A DNA stretch of 64,000 nt from Amycolatopsis cihanbeyliensis (GTDB lineage: Bacteria > Actinomycetota > Actinomycetes > Mycobacteriales > Pseudonocardiaceae). The stretch spans positions 6,048,001-6,112,000 of the forward strand of contig NZ_VFML01000001.1 in NCBI RefSeq assembly GCF_006715045.1. Direction: 5' to 3'. A program made the translations under genes and the position numbers. Each line of letters begins with the position of its first letter. Within the stretch, counting starts at the first letter, position 1. A model generated the notes under the pieces. It saw only the letters and a list, made by a program, of their open reading frames with translations, was not told the origin of the DNA and made no database searches. Shown here in pieces: positions 8,548-54,164 of the stretch.

Positions 8548-9330
8548 TTAGGTCAGTCCGCCGTCGACGCGGATGTTCTGGCCGGTGATCCAGCGGCTGT
8601 CGGGATGCGCGAGTAGCGCGACGACGTCGGCGATGTCCTTCGGTTGGCCGATGCGACCGAGCGCGGTCATCGCCGCGGCGCCGTCGACCGCCTCGGGCGA
8701 TGCGGCCGCGCGGAGCAGGTCTGTATCGGTGGGGCCGGGTGAGACGGTATTGACGGTGATGCCCCGGCTGCCGAGTTCCCGGGATGCGACGCGGCTGATC
8801 TGTTCGACGGCGGCTTTGCTCGCTGCGTAGAGCGTTTCGCCCGGGCTAGGCCACGCGGTACCGATGGTGGAGACGGTGATGACACGTCCACCGTTACGCA
8901 TGCGGCGGGCAGCGTGCTGCAGGGTGAAGAAGCAGCCTCTGGCGTTGACCTCGAACACCCGGTCCCAGTCGTCTCCGTCGACTTCGTCGATCGGACCGTG
9001 TGCCGCTATACCTGCGTTGGCCACGAGGATGTCCAACCCGGGTGCTCCCGCTTCGGCGAGCGCACGGTCAACATGGGTGAACACACCCTCAAGTTGTTCA
9101 AGCTTACCGAGATCGCACGGCAGCGCGCGTGCCCAACCACCCGAGGCGGTGATATCGGCGATGAGATCGTCAGCGGCATCGGAGCGAGTCGCGTAGGTGA
9201 ACACGACGGCCGCGCCGGCGGCGGCCAATTTGCTGGCGACTGCCCTGCCGATGCCGCGGGAGCCGCCGGTCACGAGCGCTCCCCGCCCCTGTAGTGGTCG
9301 GGCGGAGACTGACAGTGTCGAAGTGGTCAT
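8548..9330 (-). CDS. SDR-family oxidoreductase
   Basis: The 260-residue product is a classical short-chain dehydrogenase/reductase with the cofactor motif TGGSRGIG near residue 20, NAG in ILVANAGIA, the catalytic Ser in VITVSTIGTAW and the Tyr-x3-Lys pair in LYAASKAAVEQ, and ends with the usual ITGQNIRVDGG. These enzymes reduce or oxidise a carbonyl or hydroxyl with NAD(P)H; the substrate is unknown. ATG at 9330 (MTTSTLSVSAR) gives the standard length. It is divergent from a WYL regulator with a 61-base gap that holds a near-perfect palindrome, so the WYL protein probably controls it. Confidence 0.87.
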   Translation of the reverse strand: MTTSTLSVSARPLQGRGALVTGGSRGIGRAVASKLAAAGAAVVFTYATRSDAADDLIADITASGGWARALPCDLGKLEQLEGVFTHVDRALAEAGAPGLDILVANAGIAAHGPIDEVDGDDWDRVFEVNARGCFFTLQHAARRMRNGGRVITVSTIGTAWPSPGETLYAASKAAVEQISRVASRELGSRGITVNTVSPGPTDTDLLRAAASPEAVDGAAAMTALGRIGQPKDIADVVALLAHPDSRWITGQNIRVDGGLT

Positions 9331-9342
9331 GACCGCAGCCTG

Positions 9343-9379
9343 GCAGCTATCGCGGAAGCAACGTTTCCGCGATAGCTGC
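9343..9379. promoter_or_regulatory. 15-bp palindrome between SDR and WYL genes
   Basis: GCAGCTATCGCGGAA (9343-9357) and TTCCGCGATAGCTGC (9365-9379) are exact reverse complements with a seven-base spacer, centred in the 61-base gap between the divergent SDR and WYL-regulator genes. The position covers both promoters. The WYL regulator made next door is the obvious candidate to bind it. Confidence 0.75.
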
Positions 9380-9391
9380 GAAGATGGTGAC

Positions 9392-10369
9392 ATGCTCGAC
9401 ACCGCCGCGCGACTACTGCGGTTGCTGTCCCTGCTCCAGGCACACCAGCAGCTCTCCGGTACCGCCCTGGCCGACCGGCTCGGCGTCAGCAACCGGACGG
9501 TCCGCGCCGACATAGACCGGCTCCGCACGCTCGGCTACGACATCGACGCCACCCCGGGAGTCTCCGGCGGCTATCGCCTCGGGGCGGGAAGTGCCCTGCC
9601 TCCACTGCTGCTCGACGACAACGAAGCCCTCGCCGTGGCGATCGGATTGCGTACCGCCGCAGGATCCGGCGTGGCGGAAATCGGCGAGCATGCCCACAGC
9701 GCAGCCACGAAACTCGAAAGGCTACTGCCCGCACGCCTCCGGCACCGGCTGGCCACGCTCAGCACCGTCGCGGAAACCGTCCCGTCCCAGCGGGACCCCA
9801 TTCCTGCCGACACCCTTCACACCATCGCCGCAGTGTGCCGCACGTGCGAGCAACTGCGGTTCGACTATCGCGATCATCATCGCGAGCCGAGCGTACGCCG
9901 GGTGGAGCCGCACCGCCTGGTCCATGTCAGCGGGCGCTGGTACCTCGTTGCCTACGACCTCGACCGCGACGACTGGCGCAGCTTCCGTGTCGACCGCATT
10001 CATCCCCGCACCCCGACCGGGCCCCGTTTCGCACCCCGCGAACTCCCCGGACCGGACTTACCCACCTTCGTCACCCGGGGACGCATGGCCGCGCTCTGGA
10101 ACTATCGAGCGCGTGTGATCGTCACCGCTCCCGCCGAGGCGGTCGCCGCCCGAATCCCCAGCCTCTGGTCAGTAGAACCCCGCACCGAGGAGACCAGCCT
10201 CCTCGACGCCGGCGCGCCCACCCCGGAACTGCTCGCCGCCTACCTCGGTGCCCTCGGCTTCGACTTCCACATCAACCCCGACACTGCTCCCGGACTGGCC
10301 AACGCCAGCGCAACCTTGGCCAAGAGATACGCACACGCCGCCGAACGAGGCGAATCCACCCAAACTTAG
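9392..10369 (+). CDS. HTH/WYL-domain transcriptional regulator (YafY-like)
   Basis: The 325-residue protein starts with a winged helix-turn-helix of the DeoR/HTH_11 type (LLSLLQAHQQLSGTALADRLGVSNRTVRADIDRL, about residues 8-50) and carries a WYL domain with RWYLVAYDLDRDDWRSFRVDRI near residue 190, followed by a WYL C-terminal extension. WYL domains are thought to sense nucleic-acid or nucleotide-like ligands and other small molecules. ATG at 9392 is chosen because the domain starts a few residues later; the upstream frame runs through the palindromic operator. The divergent SDR gene is its likely target. Confidence 0.87.
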   Translation: MLDTAARLLRLLSLLQAHQQLSGTALADRLGVSNRTVRADIDRLRTLGYDIDATPGVSGGYRLGAGSALPPLLLDDNEALAVAIGLRTAAGSGVAEIGEHAHSAATKLERLLPARLRHRLATLSTVAETVPSQRDPIPADTLHTIAAVCRTCEQLRFDYRDHHREPSVRRVEPHRLVHVSGRWYLVAYDLDRDDWRSFRVDRIHPRTPTGPRFAPRELPGPDLPTFVTRGRMAALWNYRARVIVTAPAEAVAARIPSLWSVEPRTEETSLLDAGAPTPELLAAYLGALGFDFHINPDTAPGLANASATLAKRYAHAAERGESTQT

Positions 10370-42256: not shown

Positions 42257-43117
42257 TCATTCTAGGTCTTTTGCGGTCTGTTTGATGAGTTCGAGCGAAT
42301 CGACCGGGTTCAACGCCACGTCGGTAGCGCTGGCGTGGGCGATGTCGTACTCCTTCACCTGCACCGGATCTTCGATGAGCTGCATGGATGTCACCATTTC
42401 CACCCACGCGATGCTGGGCAGGTTCGGTTTGGAGAAGCTCAGCACATGGAAGCTGCCGTCCAGCGCATCGTGCCCCGGTGCCGCGAACGGCACGATCAGG
42501 ACGGTCAGCAAGGCCGGATGATCCTCGATCCGCTGGACCAGGTGCAGGAGCTGGCGGCGCAGCACCTCCGGGCCACCGATCTGCTGCCGGAGGGCGGCCT
42601 CGCTCAGCACGGTGATCAGTTTCAGCGGATCGTCGCCGTCCAGCCGCCGTTGGCGGGTTAACCGTGCCTCCACCCGGCGACCCGCTTCGGCGAGCCGGGC
42701 GTTGGGACTGCCCGACTCGATAATCGCCTGCGCGTACTCGCGCGTCTGGAGCAAGCCATGGATGAGGCTGCTGTTGAACGTCAGGATGGTCTCCGCGCCA
42801 TGTTCGAGGCCGAAGAACCGCAGGACCTCGGGGGCGAAGAGGCCGCTGAACTTGGACCACCAGCCGCGGTGGCGGGCGACCTCGCGTAATTCCTCGAGCT
42901 CGGCCGCCTCGTCCTCGTTGAACTCGTAGGCATCCGCGATCTGGCCGAGCTTGGCCTCGGGCACGTTCTTCTTCCCGCTCTCCACATCGCTGAGGAAGGT
43001 GGGGGAGAGGCCGATCAGCTTGGACGCCTTGGTGCCGGCGAGGCCGAGCAGTTCGCGACGTTCGCGTAGCCGCAGGCCCAGGTCCCAGCGCGCGACGACG
43101 GGTGATGACGGTGCCAT
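42257..43117 (-). CDS. XRE regulator with DUF5753 domain (first copy)
   Basis: The 286-residue protein has an XRE helix-turn-helix at residues 14-68 (RLRERRELLGLAGTKASKLIGLSPTFLSDVESGKKNV) and a DUF5753 domain with a ligand-like pocket (LLQTREYAQAIIESGSPN, EARLTRQRRL, FHVLSFSKPN). It is the upstream half of a regulator/DUF397 pair and is the same length as the second copy. These Scr1-like regulators are thought to control sporulation or antibiotic genes in Streptomyces. ATG at 43117 is used. Confidence 0.85.
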   Translation of the reverse strand: MAPSSPVVARWDLGLRLRERRELLGLAGTKASKLIGLSPTFLSDVESGKKNVPEAKLGQIADAYEFNEDEAAELEELREVARHRGWWSKFSGLFAPEVLRFFGLEHGAETILTFNSSLIHGLLQTREYAQAIIESGSPNARLAEAGRRVEARLTRQRRLDGDDPLKLITVLSEAALRQQIGGPEVLRRQLLHLVQRIEDHPALLTVLIVPFAAPGHDALDGSFHVLSFSKPNLPSIAWVEMVTSMQLIEDPVQVKEYDIAHASATDVALNPVDSLELIKQTAKDLE

Positions 43118-43208
43118 GGCGTCCCCTCTGTTGCCGATGCCACCACCAAGTAGTAGTCATCCGGCGCCGGGTTTGCCATCACACGATCGGTGGATAACGC
43201 TAGTGAAT

Positions 43209-43391
43209 TCACCCACGCTGGCTGCGCAGGAAGACCGCCCACGCCGTCCGGTCGAACTCGAGGATCGGGCCGGGGGTGCGGCGCTTGCTGTCCCGGAGTT
43301 GTACCCGGGGACCGGCGAAACGTGCCTCGACGCAGGAGGAGTTGTTCGCACTGAACGACGACTTGAACCAGCCGGTGTGCCTATCCGTCAT
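43209..43391 (-). CDS. DUF397 protein (second copy)
   Basis: The 60-residue protein reads MTDRHTGWFKSSFSANNSSC, then VEARFAGPRVQLRDSKRRTP and LEFDRTAWAVFL, as a DUF397 partner of the XRE protein encoded just upstream. Its ATG overlaps the stop of that gene in an ATGA arrangement, so the two are translationally coupled. It is a close relative of the copy at 42055-42252. Confidence 0.85.
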   Translation of the reverse strand: MTDRHTGWFKSSFSANNSSCVEARFAGPRVQLRDSKRRTPGPILEFDRTAWAVFLRSQRG

Positions 43392-44248
43392 CTCAGCTCC
43401 CTTGCGACCTGGGTGATCAGGTCCACGGTCGCCCTCCGGTCGAGTGCGGTCTTCTCGATCTCCGCGTAGGCCAGGCCGTACTCCCGGACCATCAGCGCGT
43501 CCGCGATGAGCTCGGTGGAGGTGACCGTTTCTTGCCATACCAGGGTAGCGACTTTGCCGGAAGGGAACGTCATCAGGTTGAACGAGGAGCCGCCCATCGC
43601 GTGGTGGCCGGTCGCGGTGTACGGCACGATCCGGACGTCGAGGTTGTCCGGATGGTCCTCGATGAGCCGCAGCAGGCGATCGAGCTGCGCCGCGAGCACG
43701 GCAGGACCGCCGACCTGCTGCCGGATGGTGGACTCGCTCATGATCGCGGTCAGTTGTAGCGGATCCGCGCCGCTCAGCCGCCGTTGCCGGATCATCCGGG
43801 CCTCCACCCGGCGGTCGACCTCGGCCAGCCGGATGTTCGGGCTGCCCGCCTCGATGATCGCGCGGGCGTAGTCCTCGGTCTGTAGCAGTCCGTTCATCAG
43901 GCCGTTGTCGAAGGCGCAGATCGACTCGGCGCCGTGTTCGAAGCCGAACAGGCGCAGCAACTCGTCGCTGAACAGCGCCGTGAACTGGTTCCACCAGCCG
44001 CGCTGCGCGGACGCGTCGCGCAGGGTGCGTAGCTCGGCTGCCTCGTCCTCGGGCACCTCGTAGATCTTGATCAGCGCGTTGAGCTTGTCCACGGGCAGCT
44101 TCTTCCGGCCGTGCTCGGCCGCGCTGAGGAACTGCGCGGACAGCTCGAGCCGCTTGGCCACCGCGGAACCCTTCAGGCCCACCAGTTCACGCTTCTCGCG
44201 TAGTCGTTGCCCAAGGTCCCAGCTGGCCACGGTCGGGGACGAGGGCAA
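43388..44248 (-). CDS. XRE regulator with DUF5753 domain (second copy)
   Basis: The 286-residue protein repeats the layout of the first copy: XRE helix-turn-helix (QRLREKRELVGLKGSAVAKRLELSAQFLSAAEHGRKKL), then LLQTEDYARAIIEAGSPN and EARMIRQRRLSG. A TTG at 44248 (LPSSPTVASWDLGQRL) is chosen because GAAGGAG precedes it and it gives exactly the length of its paralog; the longer frame from 44368 crosses the operator repeat. Two such pairs in tandem suggest a local duplication followed by divergence. A near-perfect 16-bp inverted repeat lies upstream. Confidence 0.83.
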   Translation of the reverse strand: MPSSPTVASWDLGQRLREKRELVGLKGSAVAKRLELSAQFLSAAEHGRKKLPVDKLNALIKIYEVPEDEAAELRTLRDASAQRGWWNQFTALFSDELLRLFGFEHGAESICAFDNGLMNGLLQTEDYARAIIEAGSPNIRLAEVDRRVEARMIRQRRLSGADPLQLTAIMSESTIRQQVGGPAVLAAQLDRLLRLIEDHPDNLDVRIVPYTATGHHAMGGSSFNLMTFPSGKVATLVWQETVTSTELIADALMVREYGLAYAEIEKTALDRRATVDLITQVARELR

Positions 44249-44333
44249 GGCGCTCTCCTTCTCGGTAGCTGCGACGACCCCGCGAATGCTAGCGGTCACT
44301 CGGCGTCGGCAACGGCCCCCGATCGTGTCATTG

Positions 44334-44384
44334 ACTCGGTTAATCAACCGGTCGATGCTACCTGACAAGGTTGATAAACCGAGT
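44334..44384. promoter_or_regulatory. 16-bp inverted repeat (one mismatch)
   Basis: ACTCGGTTAATCAACC (44334-44349) and GGTTGATAAACCGAGT (44369-44384) match with a single T/A mismatch and enclose 19 bases. They lie between the divergent XRE gene and the hypothetical gene at 44397, covering the likely promoters of both. The second-copy XRE protein is the likely ligand. The right arm also contains part of the ribosome region of the 44397 gene. Confidence 0.65.
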
Positions 44385-44396
44385 TGAGGTGAAAAT

Positions 44397-44813
44397 ATGA
44401 TCCATGCGCTACCGGCTACGACGGCTGAGCCGGGGTCGCCTGGTTACCTGTCCGACTGGTATCGCGGGCAAGGCTGGCCGGTCGAGGTCGCCGGGGAGTC
44501 GGTCGCCCTCGCGTCCTCGAATCGGGTGTGCCTGCTCGTGGTCGACTGGCGGCAGGCGCCCGGCCTGATCACGCGGCTGGACGAGGTGCGCAGGCCCGCC
44601 GCGGCCCTGCTGCGCTACGGCGAGCCGGACGAGATCGTCTTCATCGTCGCCCGCACCGGGATCCCCTGCCCGCTTCCCGCGGGACTGCGGCCGGTCGCCG
44701 GGCCGATGCCGTTGCCGCCTGTCCCCGGTGTCCGCTGGGCGGTCGCGCCATGGGACACGCGCGGGCTGTGCCGGGACATCGACGTCGTGCACGCCCTCGG
44801 GCGGTCGCGATGA
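44397..44813 (+). CDS. Hypothetical protein
   Basis: The 138-residue product starts MIHALPATTAEPGSPGYLSD and has GQGWPVEVAGESVALAS and NRVCLLVVDWRQAPGLITRLDEV. It has a good ribosome site (GAGGTGAAAAT) and normal GC-rich codons, so it should be real. No membrane segment or recognised domain is visible. It is divergent from the second XRE regulator and may be its target because of the shared inverted repeat. A secreted-protein gene follows 24 bases later. Confidence 0.55.
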   Translation: MIHALPATTAEPGSPGYLSDWYRGQGWPVEVAGESVALASSNRVCLLVVDWRQAPGLITRLDEVRRPAAALLRYGEPDEIVFIVARTGIPCPLPAGLRPVAGPMPLPPVPGVRWAVAPWDTRGLCRDIDVVHALGRSR

Positions 44814-44837
44814 ACCCATGCCGAACCAGGAGGTTGA

Positions 44838-45377
44838 ATGAAGCGTCGATCGGTCACCAGGGTCTGGCCGTTGCTGCTGCTCGTGCTCGGCGGCGCCGGG
44901 GCGCTCGCCATCGCGCTCGCGCACGCCCTCGCACCGGATCCCGCGCCGGACACCGGGCCGAACTGGCCGATTGCCAGCGGGCTGCTCACTGAACCATCGT
45001 CCACAGTGGTCACAACATCCGCGATGAGCCGCCCCGACGACGAGATCGACCAGGTCAAGAAGCTGGCGGGCGGCCTGCAATCGAACCTCAATTACAAGAA
45101 CCTGAACGGTCTGCTGCTGAGCGCCTGCGAGAGCGGCAAGAAAGGCAACGCGGCCAGGGACGACCTGCTGCGCACCCTGCCGATGCTGGACCCCGCCGAC
45201 CCGAATCAGGCCAGGAAGGCCCACTTCCGGCTCGCCGACCTCACCGCCGACCCGCACGAGGGGTACCACCTGCTGTTCGAGGGCGCCTATGCGGACGGTT
45301 CCGGGCCGGCGCTGACGATCCGGTTCCGGGTCTACGTGGACCAGGGTGTCGCCGCCTGGTGCGGCGTGGGTCACTGA
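44838..45377 (+). CDS. Hypothetical membrane-anchored or secreted protein
   Basis: The 179-residue protein starts MKRRSVTRVWPLLLLVLGGA, a single signal-anchor, and continues outside the membrane with DDEIDQVKKLAGGLQSNLNYKNLNGLLLSACESG. It ends ...YVDQGVAAWCGVGH, with two cysteines. The ribosome site AGGAGGT is strong. No family is recognised. It follows the hypothetical gene at 44397 at 24 bases and ends 38 bases before the metal-transport operon, where the Fur-like box lies; it is probably not part of that operon. Confidence 0.55.
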   Translation: MKRRSVTRVWPLLLLVLGGAGALAIALAHALAPDPAPDTGPNWPIASGLLTEPSSTVVTTSAMSRPDDEIDQVKKLAGGLQSNLNYKNLNGLLLSACESGKKGNAARDDLLRTLPMLDPADPNQARKAHFRLADLTADPHEGYHLLFEGAYADGSGPALTIRFRVYVDQGVAAWCGVGH

Positions 45378-45384
45378 GTATAGA

Positions 45385-45415
45385 CGATAATGATTGTCAT
45401 TTGTATTCTCTTTGC
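45385..45415 (+). promoter_or_regulatory. Fur/Zur-like box over a leaderless promoter
   Basis: AATGATTGTCATT (45389-45401) is a palindrome with AATGA/TCATT arms. The longer GATAATGATTGTCATTTGT matches the E. coli Fur consensus (as I remember it) at 14 of 19 positions and resembles actinobacterial Zur boxes (TGAAAATGATTTTCA) too. A TATTCT hexamer (45404-45409) seven bases before the GTG at 45416 suggests a leaderless transcript. Repression by a Fur-superfamily metal sensor is inferred. Confidence 0.6.
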
Positions 45416-46492
45416 GTGACCCCGCAGCAGAGCCGCGTGCCCGCGCGCCCGTTGCCGTCCCGTCGCGCGCTCACCCTCACCATCGGTGTGCTGTCGGCGA
45501 TCCTGGTGGTGTCGGTGGTCGTCGCGATCACGCTGGGGCCGACGGTGATTCCACTGGCCGACAGCCTGCGCTACCTCGGCGCGGCGCTCACCGGGGGCAG
45601 GATCGACCCCGCCGAGATCACCGGGTACTCGATCATCTGGCAGGTGCGCACCCCGCGCGTGCTGCTGGCCATGGTGGTCGGCGCCGGGTTGAGCGTGATC
45701 GGCGTGGCGGTGCAGGCCATGGTGCGCAACGCGCTGGCGGACCCGTTCATACTGGGCGTCTCCTCCGGCGCCTCGGTCGGGGCGAGCGCGGTGGTGGCCT
45801 TCGGCCTGTTCGCGGGACTCGGGGTGTACGCCCTGTCCGCGGCGGCCTTCCTCGGCGCGCTGCTCGCCTCCGTGCTGGTGTACCTCGCCGCCCGCAGCCG
45901 AGCCGGACTCAGCCCGCTGCGCCTGGTGCTCACCGGCGTCGCGCTCGCCTACGGATTCCAGGCCGTGATGAGTGTGATCGTGTTCTTCGCCCCCTTCGGT
46001 GAGGCGGCGCGCACCGTGTTGTTCTGGCTGCTCGGCAGCCTTGGCGGAGCCACCTGGGGGTCGCTGCCCATCGCGGCGGTCGCCGTCGGGTTGGCCATCG
46101 TGTTGCTGCTGCGCCGGGGCCGGTCGCTGGACGTGCTCGCCATGGGCGACGAGACCGCGGCCAGCCTCGGCGTGGATACCGCCGCCCTGCGCCGTGGCTT
46201 GTTCCTGCTGACCGCGGTGGTGACCGGCGCGCTGGTGGCCGTCAGCGGTGCCATCGGTTTCGTCGGGCTGGTCATGCCGCACCTGGTGCGCATCCTCGTC
46301 GGCGCTGCCCATACCAGGGTGCTGATCATCGCCCCGTTCGCCGGTGCGATCTTCCTGGTGTGGGTGGACCTGGTGTCTCGCACCCTGGTCGCGCCGCGCG
46401 AGCTGCCGCTCGGCGTGATCACCGCGCTGGTCGGCGTCCCGGTGTTCGTCACCTTGATGCGCCGCCGTGGCTACCTGTTCGGAGGCCGTTGA
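45416..46492 (+). CDS. FecCD-family metal-chelate permease
   Basis: The 358-residue protein has about ten membrane segments of the FecCD/BtuC type, with VRTPRVLLAMVVGAGLSVIGVAVQAMVRN, SSGASVGASAVVAFG and AISGA...GFVGLVMPHLVRILVGAAH. It is the membrane part of an importer for iron-siderophore, haem, cobalamin or another metal chelate. GTG at 45416 is chosen because it lies at the predicted transcript start; the frame upstream overlaps the preceding gene. It is the first of seven genes behind a Fur/Zur-like box. Confidence 0.87.
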   Translation: MTPQQSRVPARPLPSRRALTLTIGVLSAILVVSVVVAITLGPTVIPLADSLRYLGAALTGGRIDPAEITGYSIIWQVRTPRVLLAMVVGAGLSVIGVAVQAMVRNALADPFILGVSSGASVGASAVVAFGLFAGLGVYALSAAAFLGALLASVLVYLAARSRAGLSPLRLVLTGVALAYGFQAVMSVIVFFAPFGEAARTVLFWLLGSLGGATWGSLPIAAVAVGLAIVLLLRRGRSLDVLAMGDETAASLGVDTAALRRGLFLLTAVVTGALVAVSGAIGFVGLVMPHLVRILVGAAHTRVLIIAPFAGAIFLVWVDLVSRTLVAPRELPLGVITALVGVPVFVTLMRRRGYLFGGR

Positions 46493-46493
46493 C

Positions 46494-47312
46494 GTGCGCC
46501 TCACCCTGGACGCGGTCTCCGTCGAGATCGCCGGAGCGACCCTGCTGCGCGAGCTGAGCCTGAAGGCGGACAGCGGTGAGATCCTCGGGCTGATCGGACC
46601 CAACGGCAGCGGCAAGTCCACCGCGTTGCGCTGCGTCTACCGCGCGCTGCGACCCACTGCCGGAACCGTGCTGCTGGACGATGTGGACCTGGATACGCGT
46701 TCACTACGGGAAAGCGCCCGCTCGATCGCCGCGCTCACCCAGGAAAGCAACACCGAGCTCGATTTCACCGTCGCGGAAGTGGTGGCGCTGGGGCGTTTCC
46801 CGCATCTGCACGGGGGCAGGGCACTGGACGAGCGGGAGCGGGAGCTGTGCCGCGAAGCCATGCGGCGCACCGATGTCGTCCACCTCGCCGAACGGGGTGT
46901 GCTGTCCCTCTCCGGCGGCGAGCGGCAGCGGGTGCTGATCGCCCGTGCTCTCGTGCAGGAACCGGAGGTACTGGTGCTGGACGAGCCGACCAACCACCTC
47001 GACGTGCGGCACCAGGTGGCCCTGCTGTCCTTCCTGCGCACCTGCGGGCTCACCGTCGTGGTCGCGCTGCACGACCTGAACCTCGCCGCCGCGACCTGCG
47101 ACCGGCTCGCCGTACTCGACGCCGGCTCGCTGGTCGAGGCGGGCCCACCCGCCCAGGTGCTCAGGCCGGACCTGATCCGGCGGGTGTTCGGGGTGACCCC
47201 CTCGGTGGTCACCCACCCGGACACCGGCACCCCGCAACTGCTCTACGAGCTCATCGACCCGTCCCCGACAGAGTCCCCGGCAGAGTCCCCGACAGAGAGG
47301 TCTCACCAGTGA
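46494..47312 (+). CDS. ABC importer ATPase (FecE type)
   Basis: The 272-residue ATPase shows Walker A GPNGSGKS, the signature LSGGERQR, Walker B VLVLDEPTNHLD and the switch His in VALHDLNLAA. It is the energy subunit for the FecCD permease one base upstream. It begins at GTG 46494 right after the permease stop. A short tandem repeat in the last residues (SPTESPAESPTE) is caused by a 12-base repeat in the DNA. Its stop overlaps the GTG of the binding-protein gene. Confidence 0.9.
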   Translation: MRLTLDAVSVEIAGATLLRELSLKADSGEILGLIGPNGSGKSTALRCVYRALRPTAGTVLLDDVDLDTRSLRESARSIAALTQESNTELDFTVAEVVALGRFPHLHGGRALDERERELCREAMRRTDVVHLAERGVLSLSGGERQRVLIARALVQEPEVLVLDEPTNHLDVRHQVALLSFLRTCGLTVVVALHDLNLAAATCDRLAVLDAGSLVEAGPPAQVLRPDLIRRVFGVTPSVVTHPDTGTPQLLYELIDPSPTESPAESPTERSHQ

Positions 47313-48292
47313 AACGCAGTATGCCCATCGTCCTCGCCTGCTCCCTGCTCCTCGCGGGCTGCGGTGCCGATGTCGCGTCGGAGGCCGGAGCGGGGCCGGA
47401 CACGGTGACGATCGAGAACTGCGGCAAGACCATCGACTATCCCGTCCCGCAACGCGCGGTCGCCTACGACATGAGCGCCACCGAACGAATGTTCGCGCTG
47501 GGGCTGGCCGATCGCATGCGCGGCATCGTCATGCCGTCCACCACGGAGGGGCCGGTGTCCCGCTCGCCGTATCGCGCGGACTACGAATCCGTGGAAACCC
47601 TCAGCACCGACGTGCTCAGCAGGGAGGTGGTGATCGGAGCCGAGGCGGACTGGGTGCTGGCGGGCTGGCAGTCAGGTTTCAGCGAGGAACGTGGTGTGAC
47701 CCCCGCGCTGCTGGACCAGGTGGGCATCCAGAGCTACATGTACACCGAGACCTGCTACAACTACGGAACCGACCCGATCACCGTGCCGCCGCTGGAGGCG
47801 CTGTACACCGACCTGGAACAACTCGGGAAGATCTTCCGGGTCGAGGACCGGGCCGAGCGACTGATCGCGGACCTGAAGGCCAGGGCGGCCACCCTGGAGC
47901 GCAACCAGCCCGACGGCGAACCCGCACGGGTGTTCGTCTACGACTCCGGCACGGACAAGCCGTTCACCTCCGGTGCGCAGACCGCGCCGAATGTCATCGT
48001 GTCGCTCGCCGGCGGGCGCAATATCGTCGGTGACCTGGACGAGCGATGGACCACCATCGGCTGGGAGTCCGTTGTGGACGCCGCGCCCGAGGTGATCACC
48101 GTGGTGGACTACGGGGACCAGCCGGTGCAGGACAAGATCGCCTTCCTGAAGTCCTTCCCCCCGCTTGCCGAGTCACCCGCGGTGCGCAATGACCGGTTCT
48201 ACGTGCTGGATTACGGCGAGGCCGTCAGCGGGCCGCGGAACATCGAAGCGGCCGAGAAGTTCGGCGAGTACCTGCGTTCCATCGGACGCTGA
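47309..48292 (+). CDS. Metal-chelate-binding lipoprotein (FecB/BtuF type)
   Basis: The 327-residue protein has a lipoprotein signal (MPIVLACSLLLAGC, Cys18) and a TroA/FecB-type fold: PVPQRAVAYDMSATERMFALGLADRMRGIV, a middle with VTPALLDQVGIQSYMYTETCYNYG and a C-terminal VRNDRFYVLDYGEAVSG. It should capture a metal chelate or vitamin outside the membrane and hand it to the permease. The start GTG overlaps the ATPase stop (GTGA). Ligand class is not certain: siderophore-type iron, zinc chelate or cobalamin are possible. Confidence 0.87.
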   Translation: MKRSMPIVLACSLLLAGCGADVASEAGAGPDTVTIENCGKTIDYPVPQRAVAYDMSATERMFALGLADRMRGIVMPSTTEGPVSRSPYRADYESVETLSTDVLSREVVIGAEADWVLAGWQSGFSEERGVTPALLDQVGIQSYMYTETCYNYGTDPITVPPLEALYTDLEQLGKIFRVEDRAERLIADLKARAATLERNQPDGEPARVFVYDSGTDKPFTSGAQTAPNVIVSLAGGRNIVGDLDERWTTIGWESVVDAAPEVITVVDYGDQPVQDKIAFLKSFPPLAESPAVRNDRFYVLDYGEAVSGPRNIEAAEKFGEYLRSIGR

Positions 48293-48312
48293 CCGAACCC
48301 GCGAAAGGAAGC

Positions 48313-49140
48313 ATGGTGACACTCGACGCACCCGGCACGGTCGGGCAGTTGACGGCCGAGGTCCTGCGCGGCATGGCCGGGCCGCCGCCGGCCGGACTGG
48401 TGGCGACCAGCGTGTTCTGGCTGCACCACGGGACCCGGCTCGCCGGTGGTGACACCACCTACCTCAACCAGTACGTGCTGGTCCGGCTCGGCGGTTCCTT
48501 CGGCGCCTGCGCGTTCGAGGAGGGGGAACTCGGCCCGGAGGTCTGCCGCGAGTTCTCCGGTGCCGCGCTGGACTCGCTGCTGTCCGAGGGACCCACCGCG
48601 CTGCGGATCGCCGCGCTGGACGCCTATCTGGCCGAGCTGCGCCCACACCGCGAGGCGCCGGACGCCGAGCGGGTCGAGCTGCCCGCGGGGCCACCCGAGG
48701 TGCGCGCGCGGGCACGGGACGCCGCCGTTGCCGGTCTGCTGGACATCCGGTCCGGCGCGAGAGTCGGGCTGATCGGTGTGGTCAACCCGTTGGTCGAGGC
48801 CATCCGGCAGCGGGGAGGTGACTGCCTGCCCTGCGATCTCAACCTGCGCAGGACGCAGTGGGGCGATCGGGTCACCGATTCGATGGATGAGGTGCTGGAC
48901 GTCGCCGACTCCGTGGTGGCGACCGGGATGACGCTGAGCAACGGCAGTTTCGACCGGATCCTGCGCCGCTGCCGGGAGCGAGCCCTGCCGCTGATCGTCT
49001 ATGCCCAGACCGGGAGCGCGGTGGCCCGCGCGTTCCTCGGCTCCGGGGTGACCGCGGTCTCCGCGGAGCCGTTCCCGTTCTCCCAGTTCAGCGCCGAACC
49101 CACGGCGCTGTACCGCTACCGCGCGGAGGCCGCGGTATGA
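48313..49140 (+). CDS. DUF4213/DUF364 Rossmann protein, metal-linked
   Basis: The 275-residue protein fits the DUF4213 (N-terminal) plus DUF364 (PF04016, putative heavy-metal chelation) pair. The C-terminal half has a Rossmann-like run: RVGLIGVVNPLVEAIRQRGG, then a loop with DSVVATGMTLSNGSFDRIL at residues about 199-217, where the glycine/threonine loop is typical, and AQTGSAVARAFL. Family members occur beside metal transporters and metallo-enzyme genes; their biochemistry is not settled. It sits 20 bases after the binding-protein gene behind GAAAGGAAGC. Its presence strengthens the metal link of this operon. Confidence 0.75.
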   Translation: MVTLDAPGTVGQLTAEVLRGMAGPPPAGLVATSVFWLHHGTRLAGGDTTYLNQYVLVRLGGSFGACAFEEGELGPEVCREFSGAALDSLLSEGPTALRIAALDAYLAELRPHREAPDAERVELPAGPPEVRARARDAAVAGLLDIRSGARVGLIGVVNPLVEAIRQRGGDCLPCDLNLRRTQWGDRVTDSMDEVLDVADSVVATGMTLSNGSFDRILRRCRERALPLIVYAQTGSAVARAFLGSGVTAVSAEPFPFSQFSAEPTALYRYRAEAAV

Positions 49141-49171
49141 CACCCCTTGTGTCAACTCGCGGCAGTCACGG

Positions 49172-49240
49172 TGACCACAGGGCGCGCCCTCGGCCGGAGG
49201 CCCCGCTGTCGGGGCGGCGGGGCGCGTGCCCCGGTGGTCA
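49172..49240 (+). promoter_or_regulatory. Long stem-loop inside the operon
   Basis: TGACCAC (49172-49178) pairs with GTGGTCA (49234-49240). Inner GC-rich arms (GGGCGCGCCC against GGGGCGCG...CCC, with a bulge) and a CCCCG-CTGT-CGGGG hairpin (49201-49214) extend the structure. It lies in the 169-base gap between the DUF364 and exporter genes, the only sizeable gap in the operon, and may attenuate, stabilise or process the transcript. Confidence 0.4.
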
Positions 49241-49309
49241 TACGCTGGGTCGTGCCGGGCGCCCTGTCGACACGGTCGCGGACGCGCGCGAAGTCGCGAA
49301 GGAGCATGC

Positions 49310-50518
49310 ATGACCGTGGCCGAACCGGTTCCCGGTGACCTGCGGATGATCCGGACGCTGTGGCCGGTGCTGCTCGCCTCGGCCGTCGGGCTGGTTCCGT
49401 TCACCGTGTTCAGCACCTTCCTGGTGCCGATCGCGGGCGAGGCCGGTACCAGCGTGGCGACCATGGGCAGCCTGCGCGGGCTGGGCGGCCTTGCCGCGCT
49501 GCTGGTGGGCACCGCACTCGCCCCGCTGATCGACCGGGTGCCGAGGGAATGGACCGCGGCGGGCGGACTGGTCCTGCTCGGACTGTCCTCGGTGATCGGT
49601 GCGCTGGGCGACCTGCTCGCACTGGCGGCGTTCTGCCTGCTGATCGGCGCGGCGACCGCGGTGCTCAACCCGGCGCTCGGCGCCGCGGCCGCCGACAGGT
49701 ACGGCTCCGGTGCGGCGGCGGGACGCGCGGCCACCCTGGTCACCGCCACGCAGTCGCTTACCGCGATGCTCGCCGCCCCGGTCGTGGCGCTGCCCGCGTT
49801 GCTGTGGGGCTGGCGGGGTGACCTGATCGCCCTCGGTGCGGTCGCGGTGCTGCTCGCGGTGATCCTGCTCGGCAGGCGAGGCGAGGCCGTGGCCGAGTCG
49901 GACCAGCCACGGCTGGGCTACCTCGCCTCCTTCCGCGCGCTGGCCGCGGTGCCCGGCGCGTTGCCGCTGGTGCTGGTGGCCGCGCTGCGCACGAGTGCCT
50001 TCATGGGCTACCTCGCCTACCTGGCCGCGTTCTACGACGAGCGGTTCGCGCTGTCGCCGGAGGTGTTCGCCTTCGTGTGGACGCTGTCCGGGGCCTCCTT
50101 CTTCGTCGGGAACCTGCTGGTGGGCAGGTTCATCAACGCCGCGGGCGCGAGCACCCGGATCGAGGCGGTGCTGGTGGGTGGGCTGGTGGTGGCCCTTGCC
50201 GCGATCATCGGCTTCTACTTCTCGCCGGTGCTGCCGGTCGCGCTGGTGCTCACCGCGGTGCTCGGCCTGGCCCACGCGACCGTGGCGGCCTGCGTGGTGA
50301 GCCTGCTGGTGCATCGCAGTGGCTCGCTACGCGGATCGGCGCTGAGCATCAACGCGGCCGGGATGAGCCTCGGCGTGTTCGCGGGTGCCGGCCTCGGTGG
50401 TATCGGGCTGGGCCTCGGTGGCTATCCCGGTACCGCCGCGGTGTTCGGTGGGCTCACACTGGTGGCGTTGCTGGCGGGGGCGATGGTACTGCGCGGCCGA
50501 TCCACCGGACCCGCATGA
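49310..50518 (+). CDS. MFS exporter in the metal operon
   Basis: The 402-residue protein has twelve membrane segments of the major facilitator superfamily, e.g. PVLLASAVGLVPFTVFSTFLV, SLRGLGGLAALLVGTALAPLIDRV and a second half starting near LPLVLVAALRTSAF. In metal-ligand loci such a carrier exports the newly made ligand. ATG at 49310 has AAGGAG at five bases. It ends with TGA overlapping the ATG of the kinase gene, so both are translationally coupled. The transported compound is unknown. Confidence 0.8.
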   Translation: MTVAEPVPGDLRMIRTLWPVLLASAVGLVPFTVFSTFLVPIAGEAGTSVATMGSLRGLGGLAALLVGTALAPLIDRVPREWTAAGGLVLLGLSSVIGALGDLLALAAFCLLIGAATAVLNPALGAAAADRYGSGAAAGRAATLVTATQSLTAMLAAPVVALPALLWGWRGDLIALGAVAVLLAVILLGRRGEAVAESDQPRLGYLASFRALAAVPGALPLVLVAALRTSAFMGYLAYLAAFYDERFALSPEVFAFVWTLSGASFFVGNLLVGRFINAAGASTRIEAVLVGGLVVALAAIIGFYFSPVLPVALVLTAVLGLAHATVAACVVSLLVHRSGSLRGSALSINAAGMSLGVFAGAGLGGIGLGLGGYPGTAAVFGGLTLVALLAGAMVLRGRSTGPA

Positions 50519-51498
50519 GGGGCACGGGGTACGCGCCCTGCCATCATGGCGAGATCCTGCAGGGCGCCTTCCGGGAGGCCGACGGATCGGTGTGCCGCGG
50601 CCTGGTCACCCTGCCGATGCGCACCCTCGGCACCAGGGCCGAGTTCGTCCGGTTGCCCGGCACGACATCGGACGAACTCGAGGTCCTGCCCGCGGACCGC
50701 ACCAAGGCCGCCAAGGCGGCCAGGCTCGCCGTGGCCGAGTGCGCCCGGCACCGACCGTGTGGCGGGCGGCTGCGGCTGCACAGCGAGGTGCCGATCGGGT
50801 TGGGAATGGGGTCCTCGACCAGCGACATCATCGCGGCCGTGCACGCGGTCGCGGCCAGTTTCGGTACCCGGCTACGGCCGGCCGACGTGGCCAGGTTGGC
50901 CGTGCGCGCGGAATGCGCGAGCGACCCGCTGATGCTGGAGCATCGACCGCTGCTGTTCGCGCAGCGGGAGGCGCGGGTACTCGAGATCCTCGGTGAGGCG
51001 CTGCCTCGTGCCCTGGTGGTCGGGTGCATCACCGGCGGCGGCAGGCCGGTCGACACGCTGGCTCTCTCCGCCACGTACGGCCCGGCGGAGGTCGAGGCCT
51101 TCGAAGGGCTCAGGACCGCGCTGCGCAAGGCGATCGCGAGCGCCGATCTCGCGCTGCTTGGTCAGGTCAGCACGGAGAGCGCGCGGCACAACCAGCGGGT
51201 GCTCGCCAAGGAGGAGTTCCCTGTGCTGGCGGAGGTCGCCGCCACCAGCGGTGCCGCCGGGGTGCAGATCGCGCACAGCGGCAATGTCGCTGGCCTGCTC
51301 TTCGACCCGGACGCCCCGAGGCTGTGGCCACGGGTGCGCGGGTGCGTGCGCGCGTTGCGGGCCAACGGCATCACCGTCACCAGGGTGTTCAGCAGTTCGG
51401 GAGGACGGGAATGCACGAGCACATCGCCGACGCGATCGCCGAGCCGGAACTGGTGCACGCCGGAGACGGCCTGGTCTGCCTGCGGTTCGAGACGATGA
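50515..51498 (+). CDS. GHMP kinase, PduX (L-threonine kinase)-like
   Basis: The 327-residue kinase has the PduX-style start MRGTGYAPCHHGEILQG and the ATP loop PIGLGMGSSTSDI (93-105), where PduX-type enzymes have G-x-G-M-x-S-S-T-A-D. PduX makes L-threonine O-phosphate; a serine or a related amino acid could be the substrate here. The ATG overlaps the exporter stop. The frame has no stop before 51498, so the last 28 residues overlap the next gene in another frame and look arginine/serine-rich, not kinase-like. The true functional end is probably near residue 299. Confidence 0.78.
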   Translation: MRGTGYAPCHHGEILQGAFREADGSVCRGLVTLPMRTLGTRAEFVRLPGTTSDELEVLPADRTKAAKAARLAVAECARHRPCGGRLRLHSEVPIGLGMGSSTSDIIAAVHAVAASFGTRLRPADVARLAVRAECASDPLMLEHRPLLFAQREARVLEILGEALPRALVVGCITGGGRPVDTLALSATYGPAEVEAFEGLRTALRKAIASADLALLGQVSTESARHNQRVLAKEEFPVLAEVAATSGAAGVQIAHSGNVAGLLFDPDAPRLWPRVRGCVRALRANGITVTRVFSSSGGRECTSTSPTRSPSRNWCTPETAWSACGSRR

Positions 51499-52424
51499 AG
51501 GTGGTCTCCGCGCTCGCTGCGGTCCGGCACCTGCTCGCCGAGGGCACCGTGCGGCCGGGGGACACCCTGCTGGACAGCTCCAGCGGCATCTACGCCTACG
51601 CGCTCGCGCTGGCCGCGCATCGGTTCGGGCTGCGCTGCCATATCGTCGGGTCGACCACGGTCGATCACACCCTGCGCACCCAGCTCGCCGTGCTCGGGGC
51701 GCGGCTGGAGCAGATGGAGCCCTCCAGCGACCTCAAGCTGGACCAGGACCGCAGGGTACGGCGGGTCCGCGAACTGTTGCGGGAGAACCCGGACTACCAC
51801 TGGATGCGGCAGTATCACGACGACATCCACTATCGTGGCTACCTGGCCACCGCGGAGCTGATCGAGCGGGAACTCGACCTCGACCGGCTCACCGTGGTCG
51901 GCGGGGTCGGGTCCGGGGCCTCCACCGGCGCGCTGGCCCGGTTCCTGCGGGAACGGTCGTCCTCGGTCGAGCTGGCCGGGGTGCAGCCGTTCGGCAGCAT
52001 CACCTTCGGCTGCGAGCACGTGCACGACCCGGAGATCATCATCGCCGGGATCGGCAGCTCGATCCCGTTCGGCAACGTCTCGCACGAGCTCTACGACGCC
52101 ATCCACTGGATCGGCTTCGAGGCGGCGCTCGCCGGGAGCGTCGACCTGCTGCGCAGGCACGCCGTGTTCGCCGGGCTGTCCACCGGGGCGGGTTACCTCG
52201 CCGCGCGCTGGGAACGCGACCGCGAACCGGATCGGACCGTGCTGTTCATCGCCGCGGACACCGGACACCGGTACGTGGACTCCGTTTTCGCCAGGCACGA
52301 CGAGGCGCGTCGGGTCGAGGACTTCGATCCACACGACGTGTCCACAATGGAGGAACTGGCGTTGCCGTGGTCCCGGATGCACTGGGGAAGGGCCTCGGCG
52401 CCCCCGGCGGCGATCTTCACCTGA
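51411..52424 (+). CDS. Divergent cysteine-synthase-fold PLP enzyme
   Basis: The 337-residue protein belongs to the fold-type II PLP enzymes (cysteine synthase/SbnA-like). The pyridoxal lysine is Lys30 in RFETMKVVSALAAVRHLL, the phosphate loop is replaced by LDSSSGIYAYALALAA (residues 54-69), and GGVGSGASTGALARFL lies near residue 165. It is far from housekeeping CysK: the usual K-x-E-x-x-N-P-x-x-S-x-K-D-R core is R-F-E-T-M-K-V-V-S-A. Such enzymes form C-N or C-S bonds by beta-substitution on O-acetyl- or O-phosphoserine, as SbnA in staphyloferrin B. ATG at 51411 has GGGAGGA. Beside the kinase, an O-phospho-amino acid is a plausible substrate. Confidence 0.77.
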   Translation: MHEHIADAIAEPELVHAGDGLVCLRFETMKVVSALAAVRHLLAEGTVRPGDTLLDSSSGIYAYALALAAHRFGLRCHIVGSTTVDHTLRTQLAVLGARLEQMEPSSDLKLDQDRRVRRVRELLRENPDYHWMRQYHDDIHYRGYLATAELIERELDLDRLTVVGGVGSGASTGALARFLRERSSSVELAGVQPFGSITFGCEHVHDPEIIIAGIGSSIPFGNVSHELYDAIHWIGFEAALAGSVDLLRRHAVFAGLSTGAGYLAARWERDREPDRTVLFIAADTGHRYVDSVFARHDEARRVEDFDPHDVSTMEELALPWSRMHWGRASAPPAAIFT

Positions 52425-52501
52425 TCGGCAGAGTTACGGCATCCGGCCGCGGGCGGCCCGGCGGACAGTGCCTTCGGCTCCTGACCGGTCCACTCGGATA
52501 C

Positions 52502-52606
52502 GGGAACGGCGAACTCGCGCGCGTGGGGGGCAAACTCGGGTACGTGGGGGGCAAACTCGGGTACGTGGGGGGCAAACACGCGTGCGTGGGCGGCAAACAC
52601 GCCGGG
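52502..52606. repeat. 21-bp tandem repeat, five units
   Basis: Units GTGGGGGGCAAACTCGGGTAC follow each other at 52523, 52544 and 52565 (the third reading GTGGGGGGCAAACACGCGTGC), with a more diverged copy upstream (52502-52522) and another downstream (52586-52606, GTGGGCGGCAAACACGCCGGG). The array sits between the convergent PLP-enzyme and EEP genes. Both strands keep reading frames open because 21 is a multiple of three, but no start or domain suggests translation. Confidence 0.85.
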
Positions 52607-52616
52607 GGACCTGGGG

Positions 52617-54164
52617 TCAGGTGACCTGGAAGGTGGTGAGCACCGCCGCGTGGTCGGAGGTCCACTCGTTGTCCTCGTGGTTCGGGGCGGGCTCGGGGTC
52701 ACCGGCCACCACGGCGCGGGATTCGGTGACCGCCAGCTCGCCCGCGAAGTGCACGAAGTCGATCCGGTCCTGCGGTTCCGGCTCGCCCTTGTGCTCGTCG
52801 TACCCGTATCCACCCTGGAAGGTGGGGAAGATCGGCGACCAGGTGGTCCCGGGTTCGGCCACCGGGTCCGGGTTGGCGACCCGGAACGAATCCCGCAGCC
52901 CCGCCCGCCGCGGCAACACCGAGGTGGGCCAGTCGACCGAGGAGTAGCCGCACCGCCGGGTGCCCGGGGTCCAGTCCAGGTGCGAGGGGGCGTTGAAGTC
53001 GCCGGTCAGCAGTACCGGTGTCGCGTCGGACTCCGCGAGCTCCGGCCGCATCGCGGCCAGCACCTCGGTGATCTGCCCGGTCCGGCCGGACCGCTGCTCG
53101 TTGGCCAGCAGTTCCTCCCGGCTCATCCCGCCGAAACAGGCGTCGTAGGGGCCATAGGGCGTGTAACCGAGATGGACGTTCCACAGCACGACGTCCTGCC
53201 CGCGCTGCTCGTCGATCCGGATCCGCGCGCTCATCCCGGCCAGCCCGGACTCCGCGGGCGACTCGCCGCGGCCGACGATCGGGTACCTGCTGATCACGGC
53301 CAGGTCGTGGCCTGCCTGGTAGTAGTCCCAGCCGAGTGCCTCGGCGAGCACCCTGCCCGAGGCCGAGGAGGTCTCCTGCATCCCGACCGCGTCCACATCG
53401 GATTCCAGTAGGAAGCGAAGTTGCTTCTCCCGTGCCCCGTTCACCTGGCTGCCGCCGTGCCAGAGGTTCCAGCTCAGCACCTTCAGCTCCGGCACCAACC
53501 TGGCTCCCGGCGGCCGGACCTCGATCCTGGCCTTCGCGGTGTCCTTCTCGCCGCGGCCGTTCCGTGCCTCGACCCGGAGCGTCGAGGTCTTCGCCGAGTA
53601 GGCGGGGTGCGGCGTCCCGGACACCGTGCCGTCCGCGGCGACGGTGACCCATCCCGGCCCGGACAGCTTGCGGAACCGCAGACCCTGGGTGTCCCCGCGG
53701 ACCAGCCCGCGCACCGTCGCCCGGTACGGGGCCTTCGCGCGCGCGTTGCGCAGGTCGAACTCGCCGGTCACGAACCGCGGTGGCGCGGCACTGGTCAGCC
53801 GCAGGCGCACCGGCTCGGCCAGCCACCGGTACCCGTCCTCGGCCAGCCCGTACACGATGTAGTCGCCCGGCTCGAGCCCTTCGGTCGGCAGGGTCGCGGT
53901 GCCCTCCGCGTCCGGGATGTACACCCAGCGCAGCGAGGGACCGACGTAGGTCTCGTCCACCGGCCCGTTGCCCGGCTCGGTGTAGAGGCCGAGCCAGTTC
54001 TTCGGGTGCGGGCGTGGGGTCGTGTACTCCACGGTGATCGGCTGCCCTGCGCGCACGGTGTCCCGCGCCAGGGTCAGCGTGCCGTCCGGCGCGGCGGCGG
54101 CCGGCGCCGCGACCACCCCGAGCATGGTCAGCACCGCCAGCAGCAACGTGCTCAGCCTGCGCAC
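52617..54164 (-). CDS. Secreted EEP-family phosphodiesterase/nuclease
   Basis: The 515-residue protein has a Sec signal (RRLSTLLLAVLTMLGVVAAPAAA), an N-terminal Ig-like region (about 30-130) and middle beta repeats, then an endonuclease/exonuclease/phosphatase domain from about residue 235: LKVLSWNLWHGG, GMQETSSASGR, WNVHLG, LLTGDFNAPSHLDW, IDFVHF and a last TSDHAAVLTTFQ. These motifs (N, E, D-x-N, SDH) match Mg-dependent phosphodiesterases such as sphingomyelinase- or DNase I-like enzymes. The substrate may be nucleic acid or lipid phosphate. GTG at 54164 has GAGGAGG. Confidence 0.88.
   Translation of the reverse strand: MRRLSTLLLAVLTMLGVVAAPAAAAPDGTLTLARDTVRAGQPITVEYTTPRPHPKNWLGLYTEPGNGPVDETYVGPSLRWVYIPDAEGTATLPTEGLEPGDYIVYGLAEDGYRWLAEPVRLRLTSAAPPRFVTGEFDLRNARAKAPYRATVRGLVRGDTQGLRFRKLSGPGWVTVAADGTVSGTPHPAYSAKTSTLRVEARNGRGEKDTAKARIEVRPPGARLVPELKVLSWNLWHGGSQVNGAREKQLRFLLESDVDAVGMQETSSASGRVLAEALGWDYYQAGHDLAVISRYPIVGRGESPAESGLAGMSARIRIDEQRGQDVVLWNVHLGYTPYGPYDACFGGMSREELLANEQRSGRTGQITEVLAAMRPELAESDATPVLLTGDFNAPSHLDWTPGTRRCGYSSVDWPTSVLPRRAGLRDSFRVANPDPVAEPGTTWSPIFPTFQGGYGYDEHKGEPEPQDRIDFVHFAGELAVTESRAVVAGDPEPAPNHEDNEWTSDHAAVLTTFQVT

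Follow-up and report, generated by a model that had tools for sequence, protein, structure and literature searches.

Based on the collective evidence of gene content, gene linkage and upstream sequence, the seven-gene operon at positions 45416-52424 of a 64,000-nt window from Amycolatopsis cihanbeyliensis (C1:6048001-6112000 of the 7.4 Mb genome; coordinates below are positions in the window) is probably a zinc-ligand (zincophore) operon under control of the zinc regulator Zur. A GHMP-type kinase and an SbnA-like pyridoxal phosphate (PLP) enzyme of the cysteine-synthase fold (Pfam family PALP) would provide an aminopolycarboxylate, a DUF364 protein would act in what appears as the zinc branch of a larger family, and an exporter and a FecCD-type importer would carry the ligand out and its zinc complex in. 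The initial annotation, made from the sequence alone, had proposed a metal-ligand locus, with zinc and iron as the metals to consider; zinc gains support from a conserved Zur box which that annotation had not noted, and iron does not, the IdeR box being unenriched. We found no published description of the locus in the open-licence PMC literature.

The combination of genes is widely kept. One genome per species was scanned, 470 stretches were found to encode a relative of the PALP, and the best 80 loci were retained, 79 of them distinct, as two (L022 and L024) have identical PALPs at opposite ends of one contig. With gene presence defined as a tblastn match above 60 bits anywhere in the stretch (at most 21 kb, some ended by the contig), the kinase was matched in 79 of the 80 loci, DUF364 in 76, the permease in 70, an ATPase in 72 and the binding protein in 70. 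DUF364, kinase and PALP occur together in 75/80 loci and, with all three importer genes in addition, in 69/80; retention of the three-gene core in 75 of 80 loci argues against a chance arrangement. The nearest named relative of the PALP is that of Amycolatopsis aidingensis (94% identity). Counting both branches described below, the PALP is present in 110 of 297 genomes and 23 of 46 genera of the host family Pseudonocardiaceae (E 1e-60), in 6 of 396 genomes of an even phylum sample, host counted (E 1e-40), and, by the species scan, in many Streptomyces. Eight plasmid records also carry it, and a Tsukamurella plasmid shows the gene order exactly as in the window at a PALP identity of 52-55%. In Amycolatopsis palatopharyngis (NZ_PQHZ01000002.1; L022 and L024) the locus lies inverted near both ends of a 277-kb contig, a duplication representing either a terminal repeat or an assembly artefact.

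Regulation by zinc is suggested by the predicted Zur box CGATAATGATTGTCA (45385-45399, plus strand), which ends 16 nt ahead of the GTG codon at which the permease gene, the first of the operon, starts, and agrees with the Streptomyces coelicolor Zur motif, given as tGaNNatSatNNtCa in PMC5472717, at 10 of 11 fixed positions. Upstream of the importer units of the relatives, the motif is found at 9/11 or better in 60 of 69 cases and at 10/11 or better in 22 of 69, compared with 1.7% and 0.07%, respectively, of 1380 dinucleotide shuffles. For the iron regulator IdeR, whose box was sought as a 19-mer, no group showed enrichment, best-match scores being at shuffle level. Elsewhere in the host genome a 10/11 motif also precedes an operon of L28/S14/S18-like ribosomal proteins divergent from a COG0523-like gene (names assigned by eye), which we take to be a classical Zur target, and three Fur-family proteins are encoded.

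The distinction between two branches of the PALP family adds to this evidence. Together with 78 further regions from genomes of the host family, picked mostly for PALP identity near 56-68%, the set comprised 164 loci (159 distinct), of which 105 distinct loci have DUF364 only, 48 an ATP-grasp protein of the L-amino acid ligase type only, none both and 6 neither. Both branches contain the same kinds of importers and exporters, and the kinase lies near 86/105 DUF364-type and 6/48 ATP-grasp-type loci. A Zur motif of at least 9/11 stands upstream of 91 of the 100 scorable distinct DUF364-type loci (76/82 with kinase, 15/18 without) and of just 3/48 ATP-grasp-type loci, a score that block shuffles reach in 1.9% and 1.3% of cases, respectively. 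As judged from these motif matches, the box is conserved at the promoter of DUF364-type loci and, since it is present with or without the kinase and since importers belong to both branches, it goes with DUF364 and not with kinase or importer. The family can be regarded as a natural experiment, in which ligand chemistry and metal regulation would have changed together.

Several variants were seen within the two branches. Sister-branch loci (L141, L143, L145, L146, L149-L152, most of L159-L198, and plasmid L103 and L105-L107) often include an importer, an MFS protein and a second methyltransferase. Upstream of 25/48 of them stands the 8-mer CGGGAACC or its complement, perhaps a -35 element for an extracytoplasmic function (ECF) sigma factor; a -10 element was looked for and none was found. 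DUF364 and PALP are adjacent, with neither kinase nor ATP-grasp, in L147, L153, L154, L205, L208, L209 and L213, a possible minimal version of the system. In L142, a frame at 9039-9852 between PALP and DUF364 has an HxD...H pattern resembling hydroxylases of the phytanoyl-CoA dioxygenase type (by eye) and perhaps encodes a tailoring step; a gap of the same size separates PALP and DUF364 in L144.

The chemistry class of the PLP enzyme (51411-52424, plus strand; PALP, 110.5 bits) is supported by its best NCBIfam match, which is SbnA (TIGR03945, 137 bits), and by the active site: K30, the PLP lysine, together with R115, Q134 and Y135 aligns with SbnA K47, R132, Q151 and Y152, and these equivalents are invariant in 15/15 homologues and in 8/8 distant relatives checked. 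Arg132, Tyr152 and Ser185 are described as the residues by which SbnA selects O-phosphoserine (PMC12414870); two of these three are kept in the enzyme here, for which O-phosphoserine is the favoured candidate donor. The kinase (50515-51498, plus strand; GHMP_kinases_N, 47.2 bits) would act on serine or threonine. It has the GHMP fold and lacks a substrate signature, GHMP kinases of different substrates are not told apart by a fold search, and no NCBIfam model was matched above cut-off. Its earlier description as a PduX-like GHMP kinase is retained for the fold, the PduX part resting solely on the naming of some orthologues as 'uncharacterized protein involved in propanediol utilization'. Among the seven proteins, Pfam detected no SbnB-type dehydrogenase domain and no domain of a non-ribosomal peptide synthetase (NRPS), NRPS-independent siderophore (NIS) synthetase or IucA/IucC-type synthetase, in agreement with the earlier view of a ligand locus devoid of NRPS and NIS genes.

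To our knowledge, DUF364 has solved structures and no known function. The protein encoded here (48313-49140, plus strand) comprises an N-terminal part and a Rossmann-like C-terminal domain, matches PF04016 at 49.4 bits (gathering cut-off 23) and models over its whole length as the fold of the solved members 3l5o and 3npg. The annotation as DUF4213/DUF364 is accordingly kept for DUF364, Pfam having matched no DUF4213 domain in it. For 3l5o, its authors proposed a role in condensing or hydrolysing molecules that are connected with metal chelation (PMC2954201). Handling of the metal had been suggested as the role of the protein in the operon; given that DUF364 goes along with the PALP and with the Zur box and never occurs with ATP-grasp, a biosynthetic or zinc-specific step seems at least as likely. 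We tentatively put forward, as a possibility short of an even chance, that DUF364 is a dedicated zincophore enzyme which takes the place of the sister-branch ATP-grasp ligase and performs a second bond-forming (or equivalent) step leading to a zinc-selective ligand.

Transport in both directions is consistent with the remaining genes, all on the plus strand. The importer consists of a FecCD-type permease (45416-46492; PF01032, 283.5 bits; best NCBIfam match TIGR03869 at 283 bits, under its cut-off of 437), an ABC ATPase (46467-47312; PF00005, ABC_tran, 115.7 bits; best NCBIfam match TIGR03873 at 270 bits, under its cut-off of 372) and a substrate-binding lipoprotein (47309-48292; PF01497, Peripla_BP_2, 62.1 bits) with a signal peptide and LLAGC motif recognized by eye. 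The predicted exporter belongs to the major facilitator superfamily (MFS; 49310-50518; PF07690, MFS_1, 83.9 bits). Homologues of this MFS protein sit between DUF364 and kinase in 4/80 loci; another MFS, mostly divergently transcribed and not significantly similar to it by BLAST (best E 1.7), occurs in 68/80. One type or the other is present in 72/80 loci and both together in none, and such replacement of one MFS by another suggests that an exporter is needed. With all importer genes joined to the core in 69/80 loci, the presence of exporter and importer noted from the single sequence extends to the relatives.

Among the relatives, the importer exists in a close form, to which that of the window belongs, and a distant form (~44% identity). 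A class I methyltransferase gene lies upstream of DUF364 in 31/80 loci (L002-L081), the window not among them; its NPPA motif was recognized by eye, and its Pfam match was below cut-off. It accompanies the close importer in 23/30 loci and the distant one in 2/38 (Fisher p 5e-10; 68/80 loci usable, relatedness uncorrected). As the methyltransferase follows the importer form, the importer may recognize methylated as opposed to unmethylated ligand, a rule to which the window is an exception; a search of the host genome, made without positive control, returned no match to the methyltransferase.

The operon itself is compact, the seven co-directional and mostly overlapping genes of the initial annotation being confirmed in frame, strand and coordinates. 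All seven proteins exceed the Pfam gathering cut-offs, which upholds the assignments as FecCD-type importer, MFS exporter, GHMP kinase and cysteine-synthase-fold enzyme. Overlaps amount to 26 nt between permease and ATPase, 4 nt between ATPase and lipoprotein, 4 nt between MFS and kinase, and 88 nt between kinase and PALP. The last is probably real, because 13 of 14 aligned homologues share the PALP N-terminus that begins at 51411, the remaining one having a later start; the kinase tail within the overlap is not conserved among homologues. Outside the operon, two neighbouring frames on the minus strand (42257-44368) resemble helix-turn-helix regulators by eye. Immediately 3' of the PALP gene, at 52508-52602, lies a 21-bp tandem repeat of 4.5 copies, whose motif GTGGGGGGCAAACNCG is present at 7 places in the host genome, 3 of which are in this repeat.

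For the proposed pathway we infer the kinase substrate, the amine, the product, the bound metal and the DUF364 step as follows. When zinc is scarce, Zn-Zur would dissociate from its box (45385-45399), allowing all seven genes to be transcribed. The GHMP kinase would phosphorylate an amino acid on oxygen, with O-phospho-L-serine as the most likely result. The SbnA-like enzyme would convert this donor into a bound aminoacrylate, to which an amine, in the simplest case a second amino acid, would be added. The resulting N-(2-amino-2-carboxyethyl) amino acid would be an aminopolycarboxylate of the ethylenediamine type, able to bind zinc, on which DUF364 may perform an additional step specific to the zinc branch. 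The MFS protein would export the ligand, and the lipoprotein-FecCD-ATPase importer would retrieve its zinc complex.

Other explanations account for parts of the evidence. A siderophore system for iron, with the enzyme acting like SbnA in staphyloferrin B, would make use of a FecCD-type importer and an SbnA-like enzyme alike; given that the IdeR 19-mer is unenriched in all groups while the Zur motif is enriched in the DUF364 branch, and that the seven proteins include no NIS or NRPS domain, we regard iron as quite unlikely. Export of an antimetabolite or toxin-like amino acid under zinc stress, the importer then taking up only zinc or another complex, accords with the sister branch, where an ATP-grasp protein of the L-amino acid ligase type and, in many loci, an MFS accompany the PALP; dipeptide antimetabolite clusters show such an arrangement as well. 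Linkage of the importer in 69/80 loci, and a methyltransferase that tracks the importer type (23/30 versus 2/38) as expected if the importer recognizes the product, speak against this alternative, which we hold to be unlikely.

Salvage of cobalamin, corrinoids or an F420 precursor, based on a PduX-like kinase and a BtuCD- or F420-0-like importer, is suggested by the best NCBIfam matches of the importer, which are to putative F420-0 and BtuCD families, and by the propanediol-utilization names on some kinase orthologues. Yet the F420-0 transporter models TIGR03868, TIGR03869 and TIGR03873 all score below cut-off (184/392, 283/437 and 270/372 bits), the PALP is of the cysteine-synthase type, to which CobD does not belong, no Rfam family reaches its gathering score in 44000-53500, and the Zur motif is present; salvage is thus hardly probable at all. 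A zinc-sparing metabolic bypass, such as an alternative route to cysteine or serine comparable to other Zur-induced zinc-free paralogues, would suit the Zur box and the cysteine-synthase-fold enzyme; it leaves the linked exporter and importer unexplained, and we consider it very unlikely.

A number of observations weigh against the zincophore proposal and temper it. The kinase is absent from 19 of the 105 distinct DUF364-type loci, and a kinase profile search of the 19 regions was empty, the same profile having found the kinase in 21/21 control regions; O-phosphoserine or O-acetylserine, as supplied by normal metabolism, would for that reason be likelier donors than O-phosphothreonine. The PALP score of 137 bits is far under the curated SbnA cut-off of 349.95, plain cysteine synthases slightly exceed SbnA in a single-sequence search of the PDB (66.8 versus 63.9 bits), and 9k2p does so in a profile search (79.6 versus 77.7). 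The position of SbnA S185 is G167 here, leaving two of the three O-phosphoserine residues, and where the active-site loop of SbnA has Asn77, 15/15 homologues have Ile (I60 in the window). The idea of the kinase/PLP pair as biosynthetic core by analogy with SbnA accordingly stands as regards the core and the SbnA match and has to be loosened where the kinase proves dispensable and S185 is replaced. As for regulation, the host genome contains 54 copies of the core motif GANNATSATNNTC, which makes the box in the window weak when taken singly and shifts the argument to its conservation; 9 of the 100 scorable DUF364-type loci have no Zur box of 9/11 or better. The positive control, the site before the L28-like gene, was uneven over the 21 of 24 genus genomes in which that gene was recognized, only 8 scoring at least 9 and 13 scoring 7-8, with the best site at nearly one distance in all 21, and two of three ZnuA-like genes found in the host, when examined, had no site of 9/11 or better nearby; both results count against a simple reading of the motif. 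Finally, the loci are related by descent, their counts therefore not being independent. On a FastTree phylogeny of 165 PALPs the DUF364/ATP-grasp label needs two changes and the kinase label five, so that one or two evolutionary events underlie the DUF364/ATP-grasp association, which is strong as a marker and weak as proof of functional exchange.

The proposal has importance in that few chemical classes of zincophore are known. Should it hold, soil actinomycetes would have in this operon a common and very compact route to a zinc chelator, which takes two or three enzymes and is encoded without any NRPS or NIS marker gene. DUF364 would be tied to a specific metal and pathway, making its role directly testable, and, were it the dedicated zincophore enzyme tentatively put forward above, PF04016 would gain its first function within a new Zur-controlled zincophore class devoid of NRPS and NIS.

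Among known systems, the early steps of staphyloferrin B biosynthesis resemble the operon in that SbnA is the best PALP match, the equivalents of the PLP lysine, Arg132, Gln151 and Tyr152 are kept, and a kinase gene adjoins. The operon differs in the PALP score (137 against a cut-off of 350 bits), the replacement of S185, a box of Zur type instead of iron type, and a gene set without SbnB, NIS or citrate genes. The serine kinase of S. aureus that supplies O-phosphoserine, too, is distinct from the GHMP-type kinase found here. Compared to the DUF364 structures 3l5o and 3npg, the protein here stands beside a PLP enzyme and usually a kinase, under a Zur box, and never with ATP-grasp (159 distinct loci). 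The opine-like zincophores staphylopine and pseudopaline are non-NRPS products and, as described, likewise represent small zinc ligands with exporter and importer; they differ in that Pfam detects neither a nicotianamine-synthase-like nor an opine dehydrogenase domain in any of the seven proteins here. A place in the aes system for ethylenediamine disuccinate (EDDS) is not known for DUF364, for a GHMP kinase or for a linked FecCD importer. The cluster types of antiSMASH 7 are described as including both aminopolycarboxylic acid and opine-like metallophores (PMC10320115). [S,S]-EDDS of Amycolatopsis japonica, reported as a Zur-controlled metallophore (PMC6103462), shares with the present operon the genus and, as proposed for the latter, Zur control and aminopolycarboxylate chemistry.

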